A stretch of DNA of 64,000 bases from an uncultured Pseudomonadota bacterium. Lineage in GTDB: Bacteria; Pseudomonadota; Gammaproteobacteria; Steroidobacterales; Steroidobacteraceae. The position numbers and the translations under genes were made by a program. This document shows positions 14,842-63,152 of the stretch, piece after piece. Numbering within the stretch: position 1 is the stretch's first letter; every line of letters starts with the position of its first letter. Location: positions 1 through 64,000 of the forward strand of contig CAILZL010000037.1 in the NCBI GenBank assembly GCA_903838705.1. The letters are read 5' to 3'. The notes beneath the pieces are model-generated. The model made no database searches, was not told where the DNA came from, and saw only the letters and a program-made list of their open reading frames with translations.

Positions 14842-17415
14842 ATGTCACGTCCGCCACCCATACCGCAGCGCCCCGCACCTTCTGGCAAGCTTGCGCAGAA
14901 CAAGCAGACTCAGCCTGAAGAGAATCTGCTTTTTCAGCAAGGTATGGCCCTACATCAGCAAGGGCAACTGGAACGAGCAAAGTCTATTTACGAACAAATA
15001 CTGGCCAGACAACCCGGGCATTTTGATGCGTTACATTTGCTGGGAGTAGCAGCAATACAAAGCAATAACCCGGCGTTGGCAGTCGAATTAATAGGCAGGG
15101 CGATAAAGATTAATTCCAGTAACGCTCATGCCCATTCGAATATAGGCAGCGCGTTTCAAGCACTCAATCGTCTGGAAGAAGCCGTTGCCAGCTTCGACAG
15201 AGCGATCAGTATCAAGTCAGATTACGCTGAGGCCTACTACAATCGTAGTAATGCGCTGCAATCGCTCAATCGCCTAGAAGAAGCCGTTGCCAGCTACGAC
15301 AAAGCGATCAGTTTCAAGTCAGATTACGCTGAAGCCTATGCCAACCGGGGTGTTGCGCTGCAAACACTCAATCGCATGGAAGAAGCGATTGCAAGCTACG
15401 ACAAAGCGATCAGTTTCAAGCCAGATCATCCTGAAGCCTATTTCAACCGGGGCGTTGCACTGCAAGCGCTCAATCGCCTGGAAGAAGCAGTTGTCAGCTA
15501 TGACAAAGCAATCAGTCTCAAGCGGGATCACACTGATGCTTACTTCAACCGGGGCATTGCACTGCAAGCGCTCAATCGTCTGGAGGAGGCAATTATCAGC
15601 TATGACAAAGCGATCAGCCTCAAGCCAGATCATGCAGAGGCTTATTTCAACCGGGGTGTCGCACAGCAAGGACTCAGGCACATGGAAGAGGCAGTTGCCA
15701 GCTACGCGAAAGCCATCAACATAAAGCCAGACTACACTGATGCCTACTGCAACCGCGGCGCTGCACTGCAAGCACTCAGGCGCCTGGAAGAGGCAATTGA
15801 CTGCTACGACAAGGCGATCACCATCAAAGAGGATTACGCCGAGGTCTACTGCAACCGTGGTGCTGCACTGCAAGCACTCAGGCGTATGGAAGAGGCGGTT
15901 ACAAGCTACGACAAAGCCATCAGTCTCAAGTCAGATCACGCTGAAGCGTATTTCAACCGCGGTGTTGCGTTGCAAGAACTTAATCGCCTTGAAGAGGCGC
16001 TATCAAGTTACATACAGGCCAGCTTATTGAAACCTGACCATTACTACCTGGCTGGCGCGCTTTTGCATACGAAAATGTTACTGTGCGACTGGAAAAATAT
16101 TGAACCAGAAATTGATGCCTTAATCGAAAAGATAAGCAAAAACAAAAAGGCTTCCCCATGCTTTCCGTTACTTGCAGCGACTGACTTATTATCAATACAA
16201 CGCAAAGCAGCTGAGATATGGCTTGATGACAAACATCCATTCAACCCATTACCCTCCCCTATTGGCAAATCACCAGGCAAAGAAAAGATACGAGTTGGAT
16301 ACTACAGTGCGGATTTCAGGGAGCACCCGGTTGCCTACCTGACTGCGGAGTTTTTCGAAAACCATGACAAAGAAAAATTCGAGCTGATAGCTTTTTATTA
16401 CGGGCCTATCACTTCCGATCAGATGCATAAAAGAATGACTTTGGCATTTGATCGGTTCATCGATATTAAAAACACCAGCGATCAGGATGTTGCAAAAATC
16501 TCCAGAGAAGTCGGCATCGATATCGCGGTCGATTTGACAGGAATGACCAAGCACACAAGGGCGGGTATATTTTCTTACAGGGCAGCGCCAGTGCAGGTTA
16601 ACTTTCTAGGTTATGCGGGAACAATGGCTGCAAGTTATTATGACTACATCATCGCCGACGGGACGGTTATTCCAGAAAGAAATAGAGTTCATTTTTCTGA
16701 AAAAGTAATTTATCTTCCAGGCTCGTTTATGCCCAGAGATACCACTGGCAAGCCTTCTGGAGAGATATTTACCAGAGAACAATTTCAACTCCCGGCGAAT
16801 GGGGTTGTTTATTGCGCATTCAATGCAAGCTACAAGATTCTGCCAAACACATTCGATTCCTGGATGCAGATACTGAAAGGAGTGTCAGGAAGTGTTTTGT
16901 GGTTATCTGAATGTCATGTCACGGCAAAAAATAATTTACGACAGGAAGCGGAGATACGCGGAGTCTCTCCCGATCGAATCATTTTCGCAAAAAGGTTAGC
17001 AAGGGCTGAAGATCATCTGGCAAGACACAAACTGGCAGACCTGTTTTTAGACACGTTTCCATATAACGCGCACACCACCGCGAACGATGCACTCTGGGCG
17101 GGACTGCCGGTACTGACACGCACCGGCGAGAGCTTTGCCAGCCGTGTGGCAGCCAGCTTGCTTAACTGCATGGAGATGCCCGAACTGATAGCCAGCACAC
17201 AATCGCAATATGAAGCCATTGCGATTGAACTCGGGACAAAGCCTGAAAAAATCAAAGCCCTTAAGGAAAAGCTGAAGCACAACAAGCTGAGATCCAGCCT
17301 GTTTGACACGCAGCATTTTACCCAGTGCATCGAAGCGTCTTTCACTCAGATTCTTGAACGCCAGCAGGCCAGCTTGCCGCCAGATCATATTTACATCGAT
17401 AGTCAGTTAAGCTGA
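14842..17415 (+). CDS. TPR protein with O-GlcNAc transferase-like (GT41) domain
   Basis: 857 residues. An N-terminal TPR array of about eleven 34-residue repeats (residues about 30-410, EEAVASYDKAIS units) leads into a family-41 glycosyltransferase half (about 465-850). The latter shows RVGYYSADFREHPVAY, DLTGMTKHTR, APVQVNFLGYAGTM, and DLFLDTFPYNAHTTANDALWAGLPVLT. This is the build of eukaryotic OGT and of bacterial SPINDLY-like proteins; some bacterial members add sugars to proteins such as flagellins or adhesins. Substrate here is unknown. No signal peptide. No Shine-Dalgarno is seen; TATAAA lies only 8-9 bases before the ATG, so a leaderless mRNA is possible. The DNA is more AT-rich than its neighbours and breaks the usual order between nuoN and the tRNA, which suggests acquisition. 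Confidence 0.88.
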   Translation: MSRPPPIPQRPAPSGKLAQNKQTQPEENLLFQQGMALHQQGQLERAKSIYEQILARQPGHFDALHLLGVAAIQSNNPALAVELIGRAIKINSSNAHAHSNIGSAFQALNRLEEAVASFDRAISIKSDYAEAYYNRSNALQSLNRLEEAVASYDKAISFKSDYAEAYANRGVALQTLNRMEEAIASYDKAISFKPDHPEAYFNRGVALQALNRLEEAVVSYDKAISLKRDHTDAYFNRGIALQALNRLEEAIISYDKAISLKPDHAEAYFNRGVAQQGLRHMEEAVASYAKAINIKPDYTDAYCNRGAALQALRRLEEAIDCYDKAITIKEDYAEVYCNRGAALQALRRMEEAVTSYDKAISLKSDHAEAYFNRGVALQELNRLEEALSSYIQASLLKPDHYYLAGALLHTKMLLCDWKNIEPEIDALIEKISKNKKASPCFPLLAATDLLSIQRKAAEIWLDDKHPFNPLPSPIGKSPGKEKIRVGYYSADFREHPVAYLTAEFFENHDKEKFELIAFYYGPITSDQMHKRMTLAFDRFIDIKNTSDQDVAKISREVGIDIAVDLTGMTKHTRAGIFSYRAAPVQVNFLGYAGTMAASYYDYIIADGTVIPERNRVHFSEKVIYLPGSFMPRDTTGKPSGEIFTREQFQLPANGVVYCAFNASYKILPNTFDSWMQILKGVSGSVLWLSECHVTAKNNLRQEAEIRGVSPDRIIFAKRLARAEDHLARHKLADLFLDTFPYNAHTTANDALWAGLPVLTRTGESFASRVAASLLNCMEMPELIASTQSQYEAIAIELGTKPEKIKALKEKLKHNKLRSSLFDTQHFTQCIEASFTQILERQQASLPPDHIYIDSQLS
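15172..16035 (+). repeat. 102-bp tandem coding repeats (TPR units)
   Basis: The codons for the LEEAV/MEEAV motif recur exactly every 102 bp at 15172, 15274, 15376, 15478, 15580, 15682, 15784, 15886 and 15988. Adjacent units share long identical stretches, which points to recent duplication by unequal recombination or slippage, so copy number may differ among strains. Confidence 0.9.
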
Positions 17416-47110: not shown

Positions 47111-48547
47111 ATGATGAAAATTCGATTCTGCATATTTTCAATATTTTGCACTTGTATAATTCTGCTGGTTTCCGGCTGTGGCGGAGGAGCAGATAGTTCG
47201 TCGCCCCCACAAAGCAGCGCAAGCAGCAGCTCTTCATCCAACAGTAGCACATCAAGTTCTAGCTCAAGCTCCAGCAGTTCATCCAGTAGTTCAGTCGCCA
47301 GTAAGACGTGGGTAGGGACTCTACTACTGGAGAATAGCAGCAGTAACGTAACCGTCACGCCTAAAATCGCCATTGATGGAGCCGGCAATGCCATTGCCGT
47401 ATGGGCGCAAATCAATGGCAGTATTTCGAGTATTTACGCCAATCGATATGTCGTTGGCTCTGGCTGGGGAACGCCTGTCATCATCTCCGGCAGTACCTTG
47501 GCAACGTCTCCTGTGATAGCGATGAATTCGTCCGGCAATGCTGTTGTTGCTTGGATATCCGGCACATCACCTTCAGATATCGCAGCCAACATCTATTCGA
47601 CCAATGGAGGATGGGGTACTGCAACTATCATTGATAATAGTAGCGCGGCCGCTCAAAGTACCCCAGCAGTTGGAATTGACAGCAACGGCAATGCCTTGGT
47701 TGCCTGGGATATGCGAGACTCAACACAATCAACAAATCAGTACAGCATAATGTCAAATAGATATAGCGCTGGCAGTTGGGGAACCGCCACCTCTATTTCC
47801 GGCAACCAGTTATTAGCAATGCGCCCTCATGTTGTGTTTTCGCCAAATGGTAGTGCACTCGCATTATGGGAAGGAGCCGACTTACTTGGCACCGGAACAA
47901 AATTATTTTTCAGCAGTTTTAACGGTAGCAGCTGGGTTGCTGCCTCTGCTATAGAAACCTTAGTAACTAGTAATGGCACTTCAATAGGTGTTGACGGTAC
48001 CGGTAATGCAATGCTCGTTTATGGATCGCATCCGAATGGGGTTGGCGTTAATAGCATCTATGCAAAACAGTACGTCGTAGGTTCAGGCTGGGGAGGGTCG
48101 TCCCTCATCGAGACCAGCAGCGTCGAGGCCTACAACCAACAAGTTGTTGTCGAACTGAATGGTAACGCCACAGCTATTTGGCAGGAAGGCGTCGCCACAT
48201 CTAGGCTAAGTGCCAGCCGTTACACGGTAGGCAGCGGCTGGAGCACGCCAGTATTCGTTGACCTATCGGCATCAGCCAAGGGACTTCCCGCGCTGGCAAC
48301 CAATGCGAGCGGCACCACAATTGCTGTCTGGGGACAAGTCGATGGAACCAGCTACAACGTCTACGCCAGTCAGTACTCCAGCACTAGCGGTTGGTCGACT
48401 CCAACTAATATCGAAAACCTGGCGGGTGGAACAAGTCCGATCTCTCCAGATGTTGCTGTGGACACTAATGGCAACGCATTGGTCGTATGGGGCCAAGATG
48501 TTCCACTGTCCATAGGCGCGAGTGTTTACGCAAGTCGTCTTGAGTAA
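47111..48547 (+). CDS. Lipoprotein with poly-serine linker and beta-propeller-like repeats
   Basis: 478 residues; no family assigned with certainty. A signal peptide ends in the lipobox LVSGC (Cys23), followed by GGG. Residues 29-61 are nearly all Ser, a linker type seen in some surface enzymes of polysaccharide-degrading gammaproteobacteria. The remainder holds about eight repeats of some 50 residues, each with D/N-x-x-GNAxAxW and IYANRY...GWG-like strands, suggesting a beta-propeller or similar fold. GGAG stands four bases before the first of two adjacent ATGs; either may be used. Likely an outer-membrane anchored binding protein. It is divergent from the sulfatase and ends toward dnaJ. Confidence 0.8.
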   Translation: MMKIRFCIFSIFCTCIILLVSGCGGGADSSSPPQSSASSSSSSNSSTSSSSSSSSSSSSSSVASKTWVGTLLLENSSSNVTVTPKIAIDGAGNAIAVWAQINGSISSIYANRYVVGSGWGTPVIISGSTLATSPVIAMNSSGNAVVAWISGTSPSDIAANIYSTNGGWGTATIIDNSSAAAQSTPAVGIDSNGNALVAWDMRDSTQSTNQYSIMSNRYSAGSWGTATSISGNQLLAMRPHVVFSPNGSALALWEGADLLGTGTKLFFSSFNGSSWVAASAIETLVTSNGTSIGVDGTGNAMLVYGSHPNGVGVNSIYAKQYVVGSGWGGSSLIETSSVEAYNQQVVVELNGNATAIWQEGVATSRLSASRYTVGSGWSTPVFVDLSASAKGLPALATNASGTTIAVWGQVDGTSYNVYASQYSSTSGWSTPTNIENLAGGTSPISPDVAVDTNGNALVVWGQDVPLSIGASVYASRLE

Positions 48548-56566: not shown

Positions 56567-57310
56567 TTACGGTTGAAAGCCCGGGAAGATTCTTCTGACA
56601 AGTGCCTCGGGCAACAGATACTGCGGCAGACAAACCGCTGAATTGGATTGATGCAGCACATGGAGGCAGAGACCTATATCGTCACCCACCAGTGCAATCG
56701 GGGTTTCCTGACGAAGTGCCGCCATGATGAATTCACCATCTTCATTGTGATCGAGATGCTGGAACGGGTTGCGCGCCCAGACCTGCTTCCTGAAAACATA
56801 ACTGAACCCGAACCCATAGTGATTCATTTCAAATGGAGCGTAGCCGGGCTGAAAAGTCAGGCATTCCATAGGCCCACCACTCCATCTGAAATGTAATCCG
56901 GATTTTTCCATCAGATTCCAGAACCCGTACTTGCGATACAAGTAGCTGTACAGAAAGAACCCTGTGAGCTTGATAAAGTCGCACTTTCTGGTCTGCATCT
57001 CATTAACCATGATGCGAACATACTCCGGCGAGTAATAGTCATCATCATCAAACTGCACGATGACATCGCTTCTGGCCTGATCAACCAGACGATTACGCTT
57101 TTCACCGATGGATATTTTTTGTCCCAGATGCTCATATCTGACGCGGGGATCATCGAGACCGCGCATGAAAGCGCTCGGTTCCGGGCTGTCGTCGAGTACC
57201 AGCCACTCAATGTCCGGAACACTTTGCTGAGCAAATCCCTTATAAGCAGCTGGCAGAAGATGTTCGCGGCCGAAGGTAGGTGTAATGATGCTGGCGATGG
57301 GTTTTGTCAT
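56567..57310 (-). CDS. Family 2 glycosyltransferase
   Basis: 247 residues, soluble GT-A fold. The front part ASIITPTFGREHLLPAAYKGF and the metal motif QFDDDDYYSP (near residue 92) are typical of GT2 enzymes that use UDP- or dTDP-sugars. Acceptor and sugar are not known. It has no sugar genes at its side; it is set between recN and fur, where no such gene is usual, so it may be an acquired LPS or surface-sugar gene. GGAA stands before the ATG. Confidence 0.8.
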   Translation of the reverse strand: MTKPIASIITPTFGREHLLPAAYKGFAQQSVPDIEWLVLDDSPEPSAFMRGLDDPRVRYEHLGQKISIGEKRNRLVDQARSDVIVQFDDDDYYSPEYVRIMVNEMQTRKCDFIKLTGFFLYSYLYRKYGFWNLMEKSGLHFRWSGGPMECLTFQPGYAPFEMNHYGFGFSYVFRKQVWARNPFQHLDHNEDGEFIMAALRQETPIALVGDDIGLCLHVLHQSNSAVCLPQYLLPEALVRRIFPGFQP

Positions 57311-58336: not shown

Positions 58337-58783
58337 TTATCCGTATAGCGCCTTTGCACGCTGAGTAAATGCAGTCACCAATGAACCACAACTGGCTTCA
58401 AAAGCCTTGCCCATCAGCATATCCAGCATTCCATTTTTGAATTCAAACTGAATCTGCAAATCCACCCTCGTTCCGCACGGCTGGCCATCGGTATCAATGA
58501 TCTCGGTGAAACGCCAGCAACCTGTCAGTTGCCTGAAGGGTCCATCCACCAGTTGCATGGTCATCTGGTGGGGCGCACTCAGCTGATTGCGGGTAGTGAA
58601 GTGCTCTTTGACACCGAGACGCTCCATTTCCAGCCGGCCGGTCAGTTGGTCAGCATCACGAGACAGCAATTTCGCAGCAGAAACCCAGGGCAGAAACTCG
58701 GGATAGCGCTCGAAGTCCTCTACCAGCGCAAACATCTGTGCCGGGGAGTACTTGACCAGGGCGTTTCGCTTGACTTCACGCAT
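58337..58783 (-). CDS. ratA: RatA-type SRPBCC (COQ10-like) protein
   Basis: 148 residues with a START-like hydrophobic-pocket fold. Family members are called RatA toxin (reported to hinder 70S formation in E. coli) or coenzyme Q-binding COQ10-like proteins. Typical stretches: [26 protein letters not shown] and [20 protein letters not shown]. No RatB antitoxin-like partner follows here, so a role in ubiquinone handling is at least as likely. It is divergent from smpB. Confidence 0.92.
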
Positions 58784-58880
58784 TGTTCGAATTCAGTTCA
58801 TACCAGCAGCTAGTGTAACGGGATATCACCCACACCTGTACAATGCAGGTCATTCTTCATGCAAATCGTCATTCTTCTCA

Positions 58881-59351
58881 ATGAGCAAGAAAAAGTCCGA
58901 AAATAAGAGTGCTTCCATCGCCGAAAATCGCAAGGCACGCTATGATTATTTTATTGAGGACACCTATGAAGCAGGTATCGCCCTGCAGGGATGGGAGGTC
59001 AAGAGCCTGCGAGCCGGTCGGGCGCAACTCAAAGAAGCCTATGTATTTGTCAAAAATGGCGAGGCATTCCTGTTCGGCGCACATATTTCAGCATTGCCCA
59101 CTGCTTCCACGCATTTCGTACCCGATCCGTTGCGCACCCGCAAACTACTGCTGAACCGCAGAGAACTGGAAGAATTAGGCAGCGCCGTTGCACGCAAAGG
59201 TTACACGCTGGCGCCACTGGAACTGTACTGGAAAGCAGGTCGGGCCAAATTGCGTCTGGGTCTGGCCAAGGGCAAGCAGGATCATGACAAGCGCGACACC
59301 GAAAAGGAACGCGACTGGCAGCGCGACAAAGCACGCCTGCTACGCAAGTAA
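58881..59351 (+). CDS. smpB: SsrA-binding protein SmpB
   Basis: Binds tmRNA and delivers it to stalled ribosomes. 156 residues. Hallmarks: [36 protein letters not shown] and a basic tail ([15 protein letters not shown]) that enters the mRNA channel. The chosen ATG matches the family; the longer open frame upstream is not. Its partner ssrA is about 3.2 kb downstream on the same strand, separated by a glycosylation trio. Confidence 0.97.
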
Positions 59352-59362
59352 GCGACTACCAG

Positions 59363-60334
59363 CTAGAGCATTTCTTCGATGAAGTAACGTGGCCGACGCT
59401 TGGTCTCGAAATATATTTTTGCCACGTATTCACCCAGCACGCCGATGCTGAGCAACTGTAATCCACCGAGAAAGTAGATCGGGATAACCGACGAAGCCCA
59501 ACCGGGCAGCGCATTGTCGGAAAAAAACTTCACCCATAGCACCCACAGAATCATCGCCAGACTGGTAAACGACACCAGCAGGCCGATGACAGAAATCATG
59601 CGCAATGGAAATGCAGTGAATGAAGTGATGCCATCCAGCGCAAGTCTCAACATTTTTCTCAACGGATACTTGGATTCGCCAGCAAAACGCTCGCTGCGAT
59701 CATAATAAACAGATGTAGACCGGAATCCGATCAGGGGTACGATACCGCGCAGAAACAGATTTACTTCCCCGTATTCCTTGATGGCTTCGACAGCCCGGCG
59801 ACTCATCAACCGGTAATCGGCATGATTGAACACGACCTTGACGCCAAGCGTATTGAGCAACCTGTAATAACCTTCGGCGCTGAAGCGCTTGAAAAACGTA
59901 TCCACATTGCGCAGCTTGCGCACACCATAAACCACTTCGTGACCCTGAGCATACGCATCGATCATTGATTCAATGGCGCTGACATCATCCTGCAGATCAG
60001 CATCAATACTGACCACCACATCACCCTGTGCCGAAAACAATCCGGATATCAAGGCGATCTGGTGACCCCGATTTGCAGAGAGCTTCAGGCCTTTGATTGC
60101 AGGATGCTGCGCATGCAATTCGCGTATCAGCTCCCAGGTCCGGTCCTTGCTGCCATCATCAACATAGAGCACATGACTTTCTGCTGCCACCTTCTGTGCA
60201 GACACGAGTTTGTCCAGCAAGGCGAGCAGTCGCCGGGTAGTTTCCGGCAGTACTTCCTCTTCGTTATAGCAAGGCACCACAATCGTCAGTTGCGGTGTGG
60301 ACAGGATCGACGATGGAGGTACTTGAGGTAGCAT
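59363..60334 (-). CDS. Polyprenyl-phosphate glycosyltransferase (GtrB/DPM1-like)
   Basis: 323 residues. A GT2 catalytic domain (LTIVVPCYNEEEVLPET near 16, YVDDGSKDRTW near 56, VSIDADLQDDVSAIE near 112) is followed by two membrane helices (about 230-300), the usual GtrB layout. It should load a sugar from a nucleotide donor onto undecaprenyl phosphate on the inner face of the membrane. It is next to gtrA-like and PMT-like genes, which could flip and transfer that sugar. No clear Shine-Dalgarno. It runs convergent with smpB. Confidence 0.88.
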   Translation of the reverse strand: MLPQVPPSSILSTPQLTIVVPCYNEEEVLPETTRRLLALLDKLVSAQKVAAESHVLYVDDGSKDRTWELIRELHAQHPAIKGLKLSANRGHQIALISGLFSAQGDVVVSIDADLQDDVSAIESMIDAYAQGHEVVYGVRKLRNVDTFFKRFSAEGYYRLLNTLGVKVVFNHADYRLMSRRAVEAIKEYGEVNLFLRGIVPLIGFRSTSVYYDRSERFAGESKYPLRKMLRLALDGITSFTAFPLRMISVIGLLVSFTSLAMILWVLWVKFFSDNALPGWASSVIPIYFLGGLQLLSIGVLGEYVAKIYFETKRRPRYFIEEML

Positions 60335-60365
60335 TTAATTATCTGTCTTGTTCTTTCCAGAACCA

Positions 60366-60785
60366 TCACACTGACATGTTCGCCACATCGTTTCTGGCAA
60401 ACACATAACGACGCAATAAAAAATAACTCAGCAGGGAATAGGGAATGATGCCCGCCGTCTGAGCCAGATAGCTATTCAATTGCAACACATTGATACAGAA
60501 ATGGACACAGGCAAGATTAACCAGATAAGCACAGACCAGCACCAATGCGTAGGGCAGTATCTTGGCATGGAGCGACTCTCTGTACTGAAATGTCCAGCGG
60601 CTGTTCACGTAATAGCTGACCATCACACCCAAAGCATATCCCCCCAGATTGGCCTGGGTATCCGGCATATCCAGAAACCACTTCAGGGCGAAAATGGTGC
60701 CCAAACCAACTGCCGTATTCAACAGACCAGTCAAGCCGAAGCGAATCAGTGATGATCCAGTCAAAACCCGTAACCGTTGACGCAT
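60366..60785 (-). CDS. GtrA-like flippase family protein
   Basis: 139 residues with four membrane helices. Family stretches: LIRFGLTGLLNTAVGLGTIFAL in part, and LGGYALGVMVSYYVNSRWTF. GtrA-type proteins are thought to flip polyprenyl-phosphate sugars across the inner membrane. It lies 31 bp upstream of the gtrB-like gene in the same operon. AGGA is before the ATG. Confidence 0.85.
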   Translation of the reverse strand: MRQRLRVLTGSSLIRFGLTGLLNTAVGLGTIFALKWFLDMPDTQANLGGYALGVMVSYYVNSRWTFQYRESLHAKILPYALVLVCAYLVNLACVHFCINVLQLNSYLAQTAGIIPYSLLSYFLLRRYVFARNDVANMSV

Positions 60786-60901
60786 GTAAAACCAATCCTG
60801 CCTGAAATCAATTTATTCTGCCCAATGCTAGCTTTGCTATCACATGGCGCAGACCATAAACTCCTGAATAATACCGGACAACCCATAGCTTGAATCCGAC
60901 A

Positions 60902-62437
60902 ATGTTCAATCCAATTGATCCAGATGCCCGCGAGAACCAGCCCGACACACATGGCCTCCTGAAATCCATGTTGTGTTATCTGGTGATATTCAGTGTGGCT
61001 TACTGCTGTTTCATGGTTAACAGGGGCAACCCTGCCAATCTGTTCTGGGATGAGAATTATCATGTAACTTCAGCAGAGCGATACCTGGAAGGCATCGCAC
61101 ATTTCGAGCCACACCCGCCATTAGGTTTGATGCTGATCGCCGCTGGCGAATCATTGTCCGGCACCAATAAATCCATCGACAAACATGCCCTGGCTGCGAC
61201 CAAACAGATCAATGGTGACGCCATGCCAAAGAACTTTGACTACACCGGCATGCGTCTCATGCCGAGCCTGTTTGCCGTGCTCGGTTCACTGGCATTTTAT
61301 GGACTGATGTACCAGCTGTTCCGCCACCGGCTGCATGCCCTGCTGCTCAGTGGTTTGTATCTGTTCGAAAATGCGTTCACGGTGCATTTCAGGGCCGTGC
61401 ATCTGGACAGTTTCCAGATGTTCTTCAGCATCGCATTTCTCTGGCACTTCGTTTCCCTGTGGCAGCGCACTGTGCCGATACGCGTCTGGCAATATGCCAG
61501 CCTGGCCTCTCTGGCAGCGCTGGCCATCATGGTCAAAGTAAACGCCGTGGTTCTGCTGGTGCTGTTTCCTGTGCTGTATTTCAAGGATGCAGGCACTATT
61601 GGCAGCCGTTCCATTACACAGTGGATCAGGGATTTCGCTACGAAAAGTGGTGCAGCGATAGCCGCAATACTGCTGGTTTTCTATGCGGTTTTTTATGTAC
61701 ACGCAGCCCTCACCCCGCATCTGCCTGATGCCGAGAGCAGCGCAGGCAAGCAGGATCTGGCCAACATGTCTGTCGAATATCATCGCTATCTTGAGCAGCA
61801 TCTGCCCCTGACGCCCGGCATCGTCATCACAATCGCCCATGACTACTTCAAGTTCATGGACAAAGATCATCTGGGCGTACCCAAACTCGATACCAAAAAA
61901 GTGGGGGAAAACGGTTCCCACCCGATGCATTGGCCGTTCCACGACCGCAACATTAACTACCGCTGGGATTCGGCTGATGGCAAAACCGCATACGTGCAGC
62001 TGGTTGGCAACCAGCTTTCGTGGTACTCCGCCACGCTGGCCGTCGTGTTCTGTATGGCCACGATCCTCAACTACCGGCTGTTTGCCCTGCCGTTACGTTG
62101 CAGCCTGCGCACTTACCAGCTGATCGAGGTATTCACGGGGCTATATGTTGCCTTCATGGGCCTGCACCTGTGGCTCATCACACAAAGAGTGATGTATCTG
62201 TATCACTACTTTCTGGGCCTGATGATCAGTTACGTGCTGCTGTCACTGGTGTGGCAGTACCTGGCGGAAGTGTATGAGAAATTTGCCCGCAACCGGACCC
62301 TGATACTGGCCTGCGTAATGAGTGCATATCTTGGCTCGTATCTGTTCTTTTTACCTTTTTCCAACCACACTCCGCTGACCAAGGCCGAGTGCGAAAGGCG
62401 CAATATCAGCATTTCGCACATCGTAGATTGCCATTAA
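60902..62437 (+). CDS. PMT-family (GT39-like) membrane glycosyltransferase
   Basis: About 511 residues, some ten or more membrane helices. The first periplasmic loop has FWDENYHV with the Asp-Glu pair, and HPPLG follows, both hallmarks of protein O-mannosyltransferases. The later stretch with HPMHWPF and YVQLVGNQLSWYSA matches the C-terminal four-helix PMT region. It should take a sugar from a polyprenyl phosphate carrier and pass it to a protein or a lipid. It is divergent from gtrA/gtrB and probably works with them. A TTG four codons upstream is a possible but less likely start; no Shine-Dalgarno is visible. Confidence 0.8.
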   Translation: MFNPIDPDARENQPDTHGLLKSMLCYLVIFSVAYCCFMVNRGNPANLFWDENYHVTSAERYLEGIAHFEPHPPLGLMLIAAGESLSGTNKSIDKHALAATKQINGDAMPKNFDYTGMRLMPSLFAVLGSLAFYGLMYQLFRHRLHALLLSGLYLFENAFTVHFRAVHLDSFQMFFSIAFLWHFVSLWQRTVPIRVWQYASLASLAALAIMVKVNAVVLLVLFPVLYFKDAGTIGSRSITQWIRDFATKSGAAIAAILLVFYAVFYVHAALTPHLPDAESSAGKQDLANMSVEYHRYLEQHLPLTPGIVITIAHDYFKFMDKDHLGVPKLDTKKVGENGSHPMHWPFHDRNINYRWDSADGKTAYVQLVGNQLSWYSATLAVVFCMATILNYRLFALPLRCSLRTYQLIEVFTGLYVAFMGLHLWLITQRVMYLYHYFLGLMISYVLLSLVWQYLAEVYEKFARNRTLILACVMSAYLGSYLFFLPFSNHTPLTKAECERRNISISHIVDCH

Positions 62438-62520: not shown

Positions 62521-62874
62521 GGGGGCGACCGGTTTCGACGTGGGTTACGAAACTCCAGGTGCATGCCGAGGTGTGAGATCCTCGTTAAACAGCTTACAAA
62601 CTTATAGTTGCAAACGACGACAACTACGCTCTGGCGGCTTAATCCCGCCTAACCTCCGCCTGGTATGTGCTTGTGCATCCAGAATCGGGGGACGCGCTCA
62701 CAAGATCGCATGTCAGTGTGCTGAGGGCTGACCTGCTAAACGACTCCTGAGCTGGCTGTGCGTCTTCCCTGTCCGTCGGGTAGCGTATGGCGAGATACAA
62801 AGACGATGACTAAGCATGTAGGTCTTGTAGCGTAGGACTTGCGGACGCGGGTTCGATTCCCGCCGCCTCCACCA
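62521..62874 (+). ncRNA. ssrA: Transfer-messenger RNA (tmRNA)
   Basis: Rescues stalled ribosomes and tags the broken product for proteolysis. 354 nt. The 5' end GGGGGCGACC pairs with the 3' end CGCCTCC-A-CCA as a tRNA-like acceptor stem, and the T-arm GGTTCGATTCC is present near the 3' end. The open frame starts with GCA and codes for ANDDNYALAA, the form known from Pseudomonas. The 3' end with encoded CCA is a classic target for site-specific integrases, and the sequence after it is unlike the rest of the window. Confidence 0.97.
62610..62642 (+). other. Tag-peptide reading frame within tmRNA
   Basis: Resume codon GCA, then codons for NDDNYALAA and a TAA stop. The LAA end is read by ClpXP and related proteases. 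Confidence 0.95.
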
Positions 62875-62879
62875 TACAC

Positions 62880-62910
62880 AAGGGCTTGGATAGTCTCCGG
62901 GCCCTTTTTC
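62880..62910 (+). terminator. ssrA terminator
   Basis: AAGGGC and GCCCTT pair around a 15-base loop, followed by TTTC. It starts 6 bases after the CCA end of ssrA. Confidence 0.7.
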
Positions 62911-63024
62911 TTGCCTGAAATCCCCGCGTGGCGCGGGGTTCCTGCCACCTGTGCTGCGGGCGGCCACCTGACCCGCTCCAGCGCCGGCCGGCCGCTTGCC
63001 GAGTAATGCTTCCCACCCCCAAAC

Positions 63025-63152
63025 AATCGTTCCCGGCTTCCCGCTTTCCCAGCGGGAACGCGCAAGGGGTGGGAACGATTTACCGCCAACAAACACAAGG
63101 GTTTAAATCGTTCCCGGGCCAAATCGTTCCCGGGCCAAATCGTTCCCAGCCG
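63025..63152. repeat. 16-bp tandem repeats and nested inverted repeats
   Basis: AAATCGTTCCCGGGCC occurs at 63105-63120 and 63121-63136, with a degenerate third copy at 63137-63152. The core AATCGTTCCC also occurs at 63025-63034, and inverted as GGGAACGATT at 63071-63080. Within the large inverted repeat is a smaller hairpin TTCCCGCT/AGCGGGAA (63038-63058). Such a layout is typical of protein-binding arms or iteron-like sites of mobile elements. Confidence 0.8.

Follow-up and report, generated by a model that had tools for sequence, protein, structure and literature searches.

A gtrB-gtrA-pmt trio between smpB and ssrA in a Steroidobacteraceae genome: a candidate line for periplasmic protein O-glycosylation

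Introduction

What would a gammaproteobacterium do with a GtrB-type sugar-loading enzyme, a flippase-like GtrA and a homologue of the protein O-mannosyltransferases (PMT), encoded side by side between smpB and the tmRNA gene ssrA? The question is raised by 64,000 nucleotides of an uncultured member of the Steroidobacteraceae (positions 1 to 64,000 of contig CAILZL010000037.1, assembly GCA_903838705.1), hereafter the window, in which the three genes lie at 59363-62437. A first-pass annotation of these letters had proposed that a polyprenyl-linked sugar is passed on there by a PMT-type transferase, to periplasmic proteins or to lipopolysaccharide. In this work we find it probable that the trio is a dedicated line of periplasmic protein O-glycosylation, and we weigh this against decoration of a surface polysaccharide, mere co-location of the genes, and modification of lipid A with aminoarabinose (Ara4N).

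Results

The identity of the transferase comes first. Domains and predicted model alike show the third protein of the trio to be a true homologue of the GT39 protein O-mannosyltransferases. The pmt gene (60902-62437, plus strand; 511 amino acids), for which the ATG at 60902 is a likelier start than the TTG at 60890, carries both GT39 domains above their curated cut-offs (PF02366 at 72.0 bits, PF16192 at 66.5 bits), and its product is the one PF16192 protein of the genome. Its credible sequence matches in the PDB are Pmt2, Pmt1 and Pmt4, and the predicted model (pLDDT 94.3) fits Pmt4 (9i5l) with a Z of 38.0 (465 of 511 residues aligned, root-mean-square deviation 3.0) and Pmt2 (6p25_B) with a Z of 37.6, the Pmt4 and Pmt2 fits spanning 465-472 residues, as against a Z of 21.7 for ArnT (5ezm) and a lower one for PglB.

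The Asp-Glu and HPPLG motifs that the first-pass annotation had pointed out are indeed present, at D50-E51 and H71-G75 (numbering from the ATG form), within a set of marked residues comprising D50, E51, H71-P73, R164, D169, W344, N370, R429, Y432 and Y436. In an alignment of 102 PMTs, made along with one of 60 rows, H71, R164, W344, N370 and Y436 are kept throughout (102/102), D50 and E51 in 101, and R429 and Y432 in 82 each. Mutation has shown the importance of D74, D176, R441 and Y444 of the actinobacterial MtPMT (accessible part of PMC12331936); of the motifs given in the same part of that source, P-x2-W-x8-Y in EL4 is matched exactly by P341/W344/Y353 of the window PMT and R-x2-Y is matched by R429/Y432, and D169 would be the equivalent of D176. 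From GT39 membership and the conserved catalytic residues, transfer of sugar to Ser or Thr of proteins is predicted for this enzyme. Residues 497 and 510 of its C-terminal tail are both Cys, as they are in 21 and 49 of the 102 PMTs respectively, and they possibly form a periplasmic disulphide.

The placing of the trio between smpB and ssrA is borne out by Pfam, NCBIfam and ARAGORN matches. To the left stands smpB (58752-59351, plus strand; NF003843 at 217.6 bits) and to the right ssrA (62521-62874, plus strand; found by ARAGORN, with the tag ANDDNYALAA). Between them, gtrB (59363-60334; 323 amino acids, GT2, two C-terminal transmembrane helices; PF00535 at 102.9 bits) and gtrA (60366-60785; 139 amino acids, a GtrA/DPMS transmembrane protein; PF04138 at 82.3 bits) are on the minus strand, each of these Pfam matches again exceeding its curated cut-off, and pmt diverges from them on the plus strand. 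The 116 bases between the ends of gtrA and pmt (60786-60901, assigned to neither strand) may serve as a shared promoter region. Since pmt is divergent from gtrA, the trio is not one operon; what stands of the first-pass proposal is a lipid-linked line ending in a PMT, which is supported by the domains and the linkage. In a genome of the same genus (G001, loci L034 and L114) the order smpB-gtrB-gtrA-pmt-ssrA is identical, and in another (G003) pmt-ssrA and the gtrA-gtrB pair lie at different contig ends. The site is accordingly an old one within the genus. The G+C content of the trio stretch (0.49-0.53) is close to that of the genes immediately before.

The trio is not a local chance grouping. 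The first-pass annotation had suggested checking whether the three genes travel together elsewhere, and they do. Among the best 80 of 114 confirmed PMT loci, which span Gamma-, Alpha- and Deltaproteobacteria, Campylobacterota, Spirochaetota, Cyanobacteria and Patescibacteria, a gtrB-like open reading frame (ORF) lies within 2.5 kb of pmt in 32 (one of which, L045, is a 1110-amino-acid ORF with a weak score of 6e-5 that may not be a GtrB), a gtrA-like one in 10, all of them within 1 kb, and both in eight (L034, L053, L056, L057, L070, L071, L087 and L094); these counts include 22 loci with less than 2.5 kb on one side. The density of gtrB falls from 1.82 per 10 kb at 0-1 kb from pmt to 0.08-0.19 beyond 2 kb. 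On a PMT tree of 102 rows (quick LG+G4, computed without bootstrap, eight duplicate or own-genome rows having been removed) the linkage of gtrB requires at least 15 changes and that of gtrA at least 10, which points to many gains or losses of linkage. In an alphaproteobacterial family (f61), moreover, a fusion of GtrB and GtrA (GT2 plus GtrA domains, by Pfam on two) abuts pmt in eight of 11 short loci. Other recurrent neighbours of pmt, namely type I secretion genes, IleRS, an ABC transporter, FtsH and PMT_2 proteins, were not used in the inference. In a locus of Rhodocyclales (L037, 10133-13782) genes for a type I secretion ABC transporter and an HlyD protein (Pfam) come after pmt, and the same arrangement was judged by eye in a second one (L039, 10034-13611).

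At the level of whole genomes, GtrA is found in seven of seven PMT-positive relatives and in 28 of 52 PMT-negative ones, and in a phylum sample it exceeds the cut-off in 22 of 22 PMT-positive genomes as compared to 177 of 376 others (at E <= 0.001, in 23 of 25 PMT genomes); the Fisher tests made on these counts are uncorrected for kinship, and their p-values overstate the significance because the genomes come from few families. The window's own genome has two further polyprenyl-sugar lines. On one contig (C4, locus L249) stands a compact Ara4N-like cluster, in which ArnT precedes an ArnF-like SMR protein and an ArnB-like aminotransferase, and directly after it comes a GtrB paralogue, 31% identical to the window's, which is likely ArnC. 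On another (C13; L121, 9514-15726) a second GtrA accompanies a UbiA-HAD fusion, a FAD-binding oxidase and an SDR protein, in what looks like a polyprenyl-pentofuranose pathway with GtrA as carrier and which we take to be of the DprE1/DprE2 type. This naming is supported by the accessible part of PMC11127046. Since each of these lines has its own synthase and carrier, the GtrB and GtrA of the window likely serve the PMT.

As to the sugar, GtrB shows features of its family: a GT2 domain, the DxD motif (D111/D113), the equivalent of the catalytic acid (D173) and a C-terminal membrane part, the residues being aligned to D94/D96/D157 of Synechocystis Sll0501 (PMC4728340). Sll0501, itself a GtrB, is the closest solved relative (230 bits across residues 11-320) and its product is undecaprenyl phosphate glucose (PMC4728340); the Synechocystis genome in the locus set also has a PMT (L106). 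Mannose is possible as well, because the window's own genome encodes GMP_PMI, for GDP-mannose. The best NCBIfam match of GtrB is PgfS, at 241 bits and under the cut-off of 500.

Candidate acceptors are suggested by the surroundings of the PMTs. In the roughly 8-kb surroundings of the 80 PMTs (985 kb in all), 34 ORFs rich in Ser or in Ser/Thr were counted by thresholds fixed once an initial look at 26 sources had revealed the pattern; the 34 include ORFs judged non-exported by a crude signal test, which leaves 26 exported ones in 23 of the 80 loci. The count is zero in 1,122 kb from 12 PMT-negative relatives of the window's family, and one in 274 kb of stretches away from PMT loci in 10 PMT-positive genomes (p 0.002 for all 34 against this one). 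Poly-Ser proteins are immediate neighbours of pmt in L112, a Novosphingobium locus, and in L051; lipobox-like starts occur in several of the Ser-rich ORFs. Several Ser runs are written in alternating AGY and TCN codons, as would be expected if selection acts on the protein. This alternation also made an AGY-run DNA pattern useless for finding poly-Ser, and a poly-Ser protein query was unusable as a counter, retrieving only itself in its own genome.

Within the PMT-positive part of the window's family, where the coverage of G004 and G028 was limited to their PMT stretch, the only Ser-rich matches are that of the window and one in G002; two more occur in the PMT stretch of another family (L120). 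The window's own is a poly-Ser lipoprotein-like protein (47111-48547, plus strand), about 11 kb before gtrB, with a lipobox-like LVSGC, a run of 14 Ser and no Pfam match, and it would be a candidate acceptor of the PMT. On the whole, the case for Ser-rich proteins near pmt as acceptors is suggestive.

A further protein accompanies part of the PMTs. In 24 of the 80 loci (among L052-L082, and L120) a PA14-like protein of about 185-240 amino acids is encoded directly beside pmt, always within 1 kb. A membrane-anchored protein with a single N-terminal helix, it contains a PA14-like domain (PF07691 exceeds the cut-off in four of five scanned), its model (pLDDT 91.5) finds PA14 sugar-binding domains by Foldseek, and it is specific to branches that include Campylobacterota and Cellvibrio-type Gammaproteobacteria, among others, with a minimum of three changes of linkage on the PMT tree. 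A guess would be that it replaces the MIR domain of the eukaryotic enzymes. Such a partner was rejected for the window's system, the own genome giving no PF07691 match at E <= 1.

Discussion

Read from the observed gene identities, conserved residues, predicted fold and recurrent linkage, the three activities would run as follows. GtrB would load undecaprenyl phosphate, at the cytoplasmic side, with a hexose, either glucose or mannose, drawn from a nucleotide sugar, as its close homology suggests; GtrA, by its family and linkage, would bring this lipid-linked sugar across to the periplasm; and the PMT, by GT39 membership and catalytic residues, would put it on Ser or Thr of exported proteins as they emerge, the likeliest targets being disordered Ser/Thr-rich stretches such as the linkers of lipoproteins.

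Several observations weigh against this interpretation. GtrB scores 57 bits against the archaeal dolichyl phosphate mannose synthase versus 230 against the glucose-specific GtrB, and is far nearer the latter, so that the word 'mannosyl' may not apply. GtrA is absent from five of 30 searched PMT-positive genomes, including an isolate of Denitrificimonas caeni; one genome (G029, 82% complete) has a GtrB-GtrA pair without a PMT match, and in another (G032) the nearest pair and the PMT are on different contigs. Within the genus itself, G002 keeps pmt-ssrA, with an adjoining GtrB only 40% identical and no gtrA beside it. In one locus (L044) pmt adjoins Wzm/Wzt-type exporter genes and a neighbour of 1124 amino acids, and the exporter genes favour a polysaccharide acceptor there. 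Regarding the Ser-rich ORFs, Patescibacteria, a lineage without background, account for 18 of the 34 (leaving this lineage out, 16 in 581 kb from 47 loci compare to 1 in 274 kb, p 0.013), and that background is only partly lineage-matched, its 10 genomes having been picked partly for a PMT-locus match. Their steep fall-off with distance from pmt, as taken from ORF edges (p 0.0037), was dropped for a measure at the Ser stretch itself, by which 0-4 kb and 4-8 kb do not differ significantly (p 0.13).

The alternative that survives best, unlikely as we hold it, is that what the trio modifies in the periplasm is a surface polysaccharide, be it O antigen, capsule or lipid A-core, with the PMT as the acceptor-specific transferase, as in gtr seroconversion. 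GtrA, GtrB and a GT-C enzyme do make up the three-part layout of O-antigen glucosylation (accessible part of PMC11127046), the resemblance of GtrB to the glucose-specific enzyme fits that layout, and so do the neighbours of pmt in L044. However, both domains and the predicted fold mark the transferase as GT39, and the acceptors reported for GT39 are proteins, in the parts of the literature accessible to us. Beside the trio no polysaccharide cluster was seen in the 64-kb window, where no search was made for prophage genes. The same partners, moreover, recur in loci of Patescibacteria and Campylobacterota. The envelopes of these two groups differ widely.

Poorer still are the chances of mere co-location, by which GtrB and GtrA would work for several transferases or for a different pathway, and the PMT would draw on a general pool of polyprenyl-linked sugar. 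The cases of G029 and G032 speak for it, as does the fact that near most PMTs of Gammaproteobacteria gtrB and gtrA are unlinked or absent; against it stand the tight linkage repeated in distant lineages, the fusions, and the separate synthase and carrier of each of the other two polyprenyl-sugar lines. That the PMT is really an Ara4N transferase acting on lipid A, with GtrB as ArnC, which the first-pass annotation had listed as a way for its proposal to fail, is very improbable: PF02366 is common to PMT and ArnT, and GtrB does match the ArnC model (152.7 bits, cut-off 529), but domain, fold and genome led us to reject this reading, the window PMT having PF16192 and no match to Arnt_C (PF18583), which the other GT-C of the genome matches at 106.3 bits, fitting Pmt far better than ArnT, and its genome having a separate ArnT cluster elsewhere.

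Periplasmic protein O-glycosylation by the trio would find its nearest counterpart in actinobacterial O-mannosylation (MtPMT Rv1002c and Ppm1), which has a GT39 enzyme with the same catalytic residues, a GT2 synthase for the lipid-linked sugar and Ser/Thr acceptors in linkers (accessible parts of PMC12331936, PMC12757957 and PMC11727336), those of the trio being predicted. The trio differs in that its synthase is a GtrB with two transmembrane helices of its own, in the adjoining GtrA, and in that the sugar may be glucose. With the gtr clusters of O-antigen seroconversion (GtrA-GtrB-Gtr*) it has in common GtrB, GtrA and the use of a lipid-linked monosaccharide in the periplasm (accessible part of PMC11127046), whereas its third protein is GT39 and not a serotype Gtr, and its place between smpB and ssrA is kept in the genus. 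The Pgf system of Streptococcus mutans (PgfS-PgfM1-PgfE-PgfM2) likewise joins a GtrB-like synthase to PMT-like membrane proteins and modifies surface proteins; unlike the trio, its PgfM1 is described as of PMT-2 type, its operon names no GtrA and its modification is HexNAc, as far as the accessible part of PMC5856776 goes. The eukaryotic Pmt1, Pmt2 and Pmt4 resemble the window PMT in domains, fold and active-site motifs and differ from it by their MIR domain; some bacterial loci, though none in the own genome, have the separate PA14 protein next to pmt. The ArnT/ArnC system also pairs a GT-C transferase bearing PF02366 with an ArnC-like GT2, its C-terminal domain and fold being different and its genes standing separately in the own genome.

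For bacterial O-mannosylation a flippase is hypothesised in the accessible part of PMC12757957, and is called still unknown in that of another recent paper. The repeated linkage of GT39 PMTs with GtrA and GtrB, and the GtrB-GtrA fusions beside pmt, make GtrA a concrete and testable candidate. Our literature searches, which covered few subscription journals, gave no paper linking a GT39 PMT with GtrA/GtrB, PA14 proteins or poly-Ser linkers, and no report of PMT protein O-glycosylation in Gram-negative or Patescibacterial lineages. If our interpretation is correct, this modification extends to these lineages, and the Ser-rich neighbours, if true acceptors, would give poly-Ser linkers a function. 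It is tempting to go further, and quite tentatively, to speculate that GtrA is the missing flippase of PMT protein O-glycosylation, that Gram-negative and Patescibacterial PMT lines coat poly-Ser or Ser/Thr-rich linkers, in lipoproteins as well as in exported enzymes, with a sugar that is probably glucose no less often than mannose, and that in one large branch the membrane-anchored PA14 protein replaces MIR.

The first-pass suggestion that protein glycosylation may be broad in this strain finds no support. Its OGT-like gene (14842-17415) encodes a TPR and GT41 protein of 857 amino acids, of the O-GlcNAc-transferase type and not a PglL-type oligosaccharyltransferase, and nothing ties the other GT2 of the window (56567-57310) to the trio. 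On the 3′ side of ssrA, the window holds at 62866-63152 an imperfect 38-base repeat (76%) that begins at the 3′ end of ssrA, together with a 16-base tandem repeat. Beyond the window (L122, contig C37, 64001-76000), PADLOC finds JetA, JetB and JetC of a type I Wadjet system, a defence cluster adjoining the tmRNA gene, and a protein resembling the specificity subunit of a type I methylase is encoded there as well.

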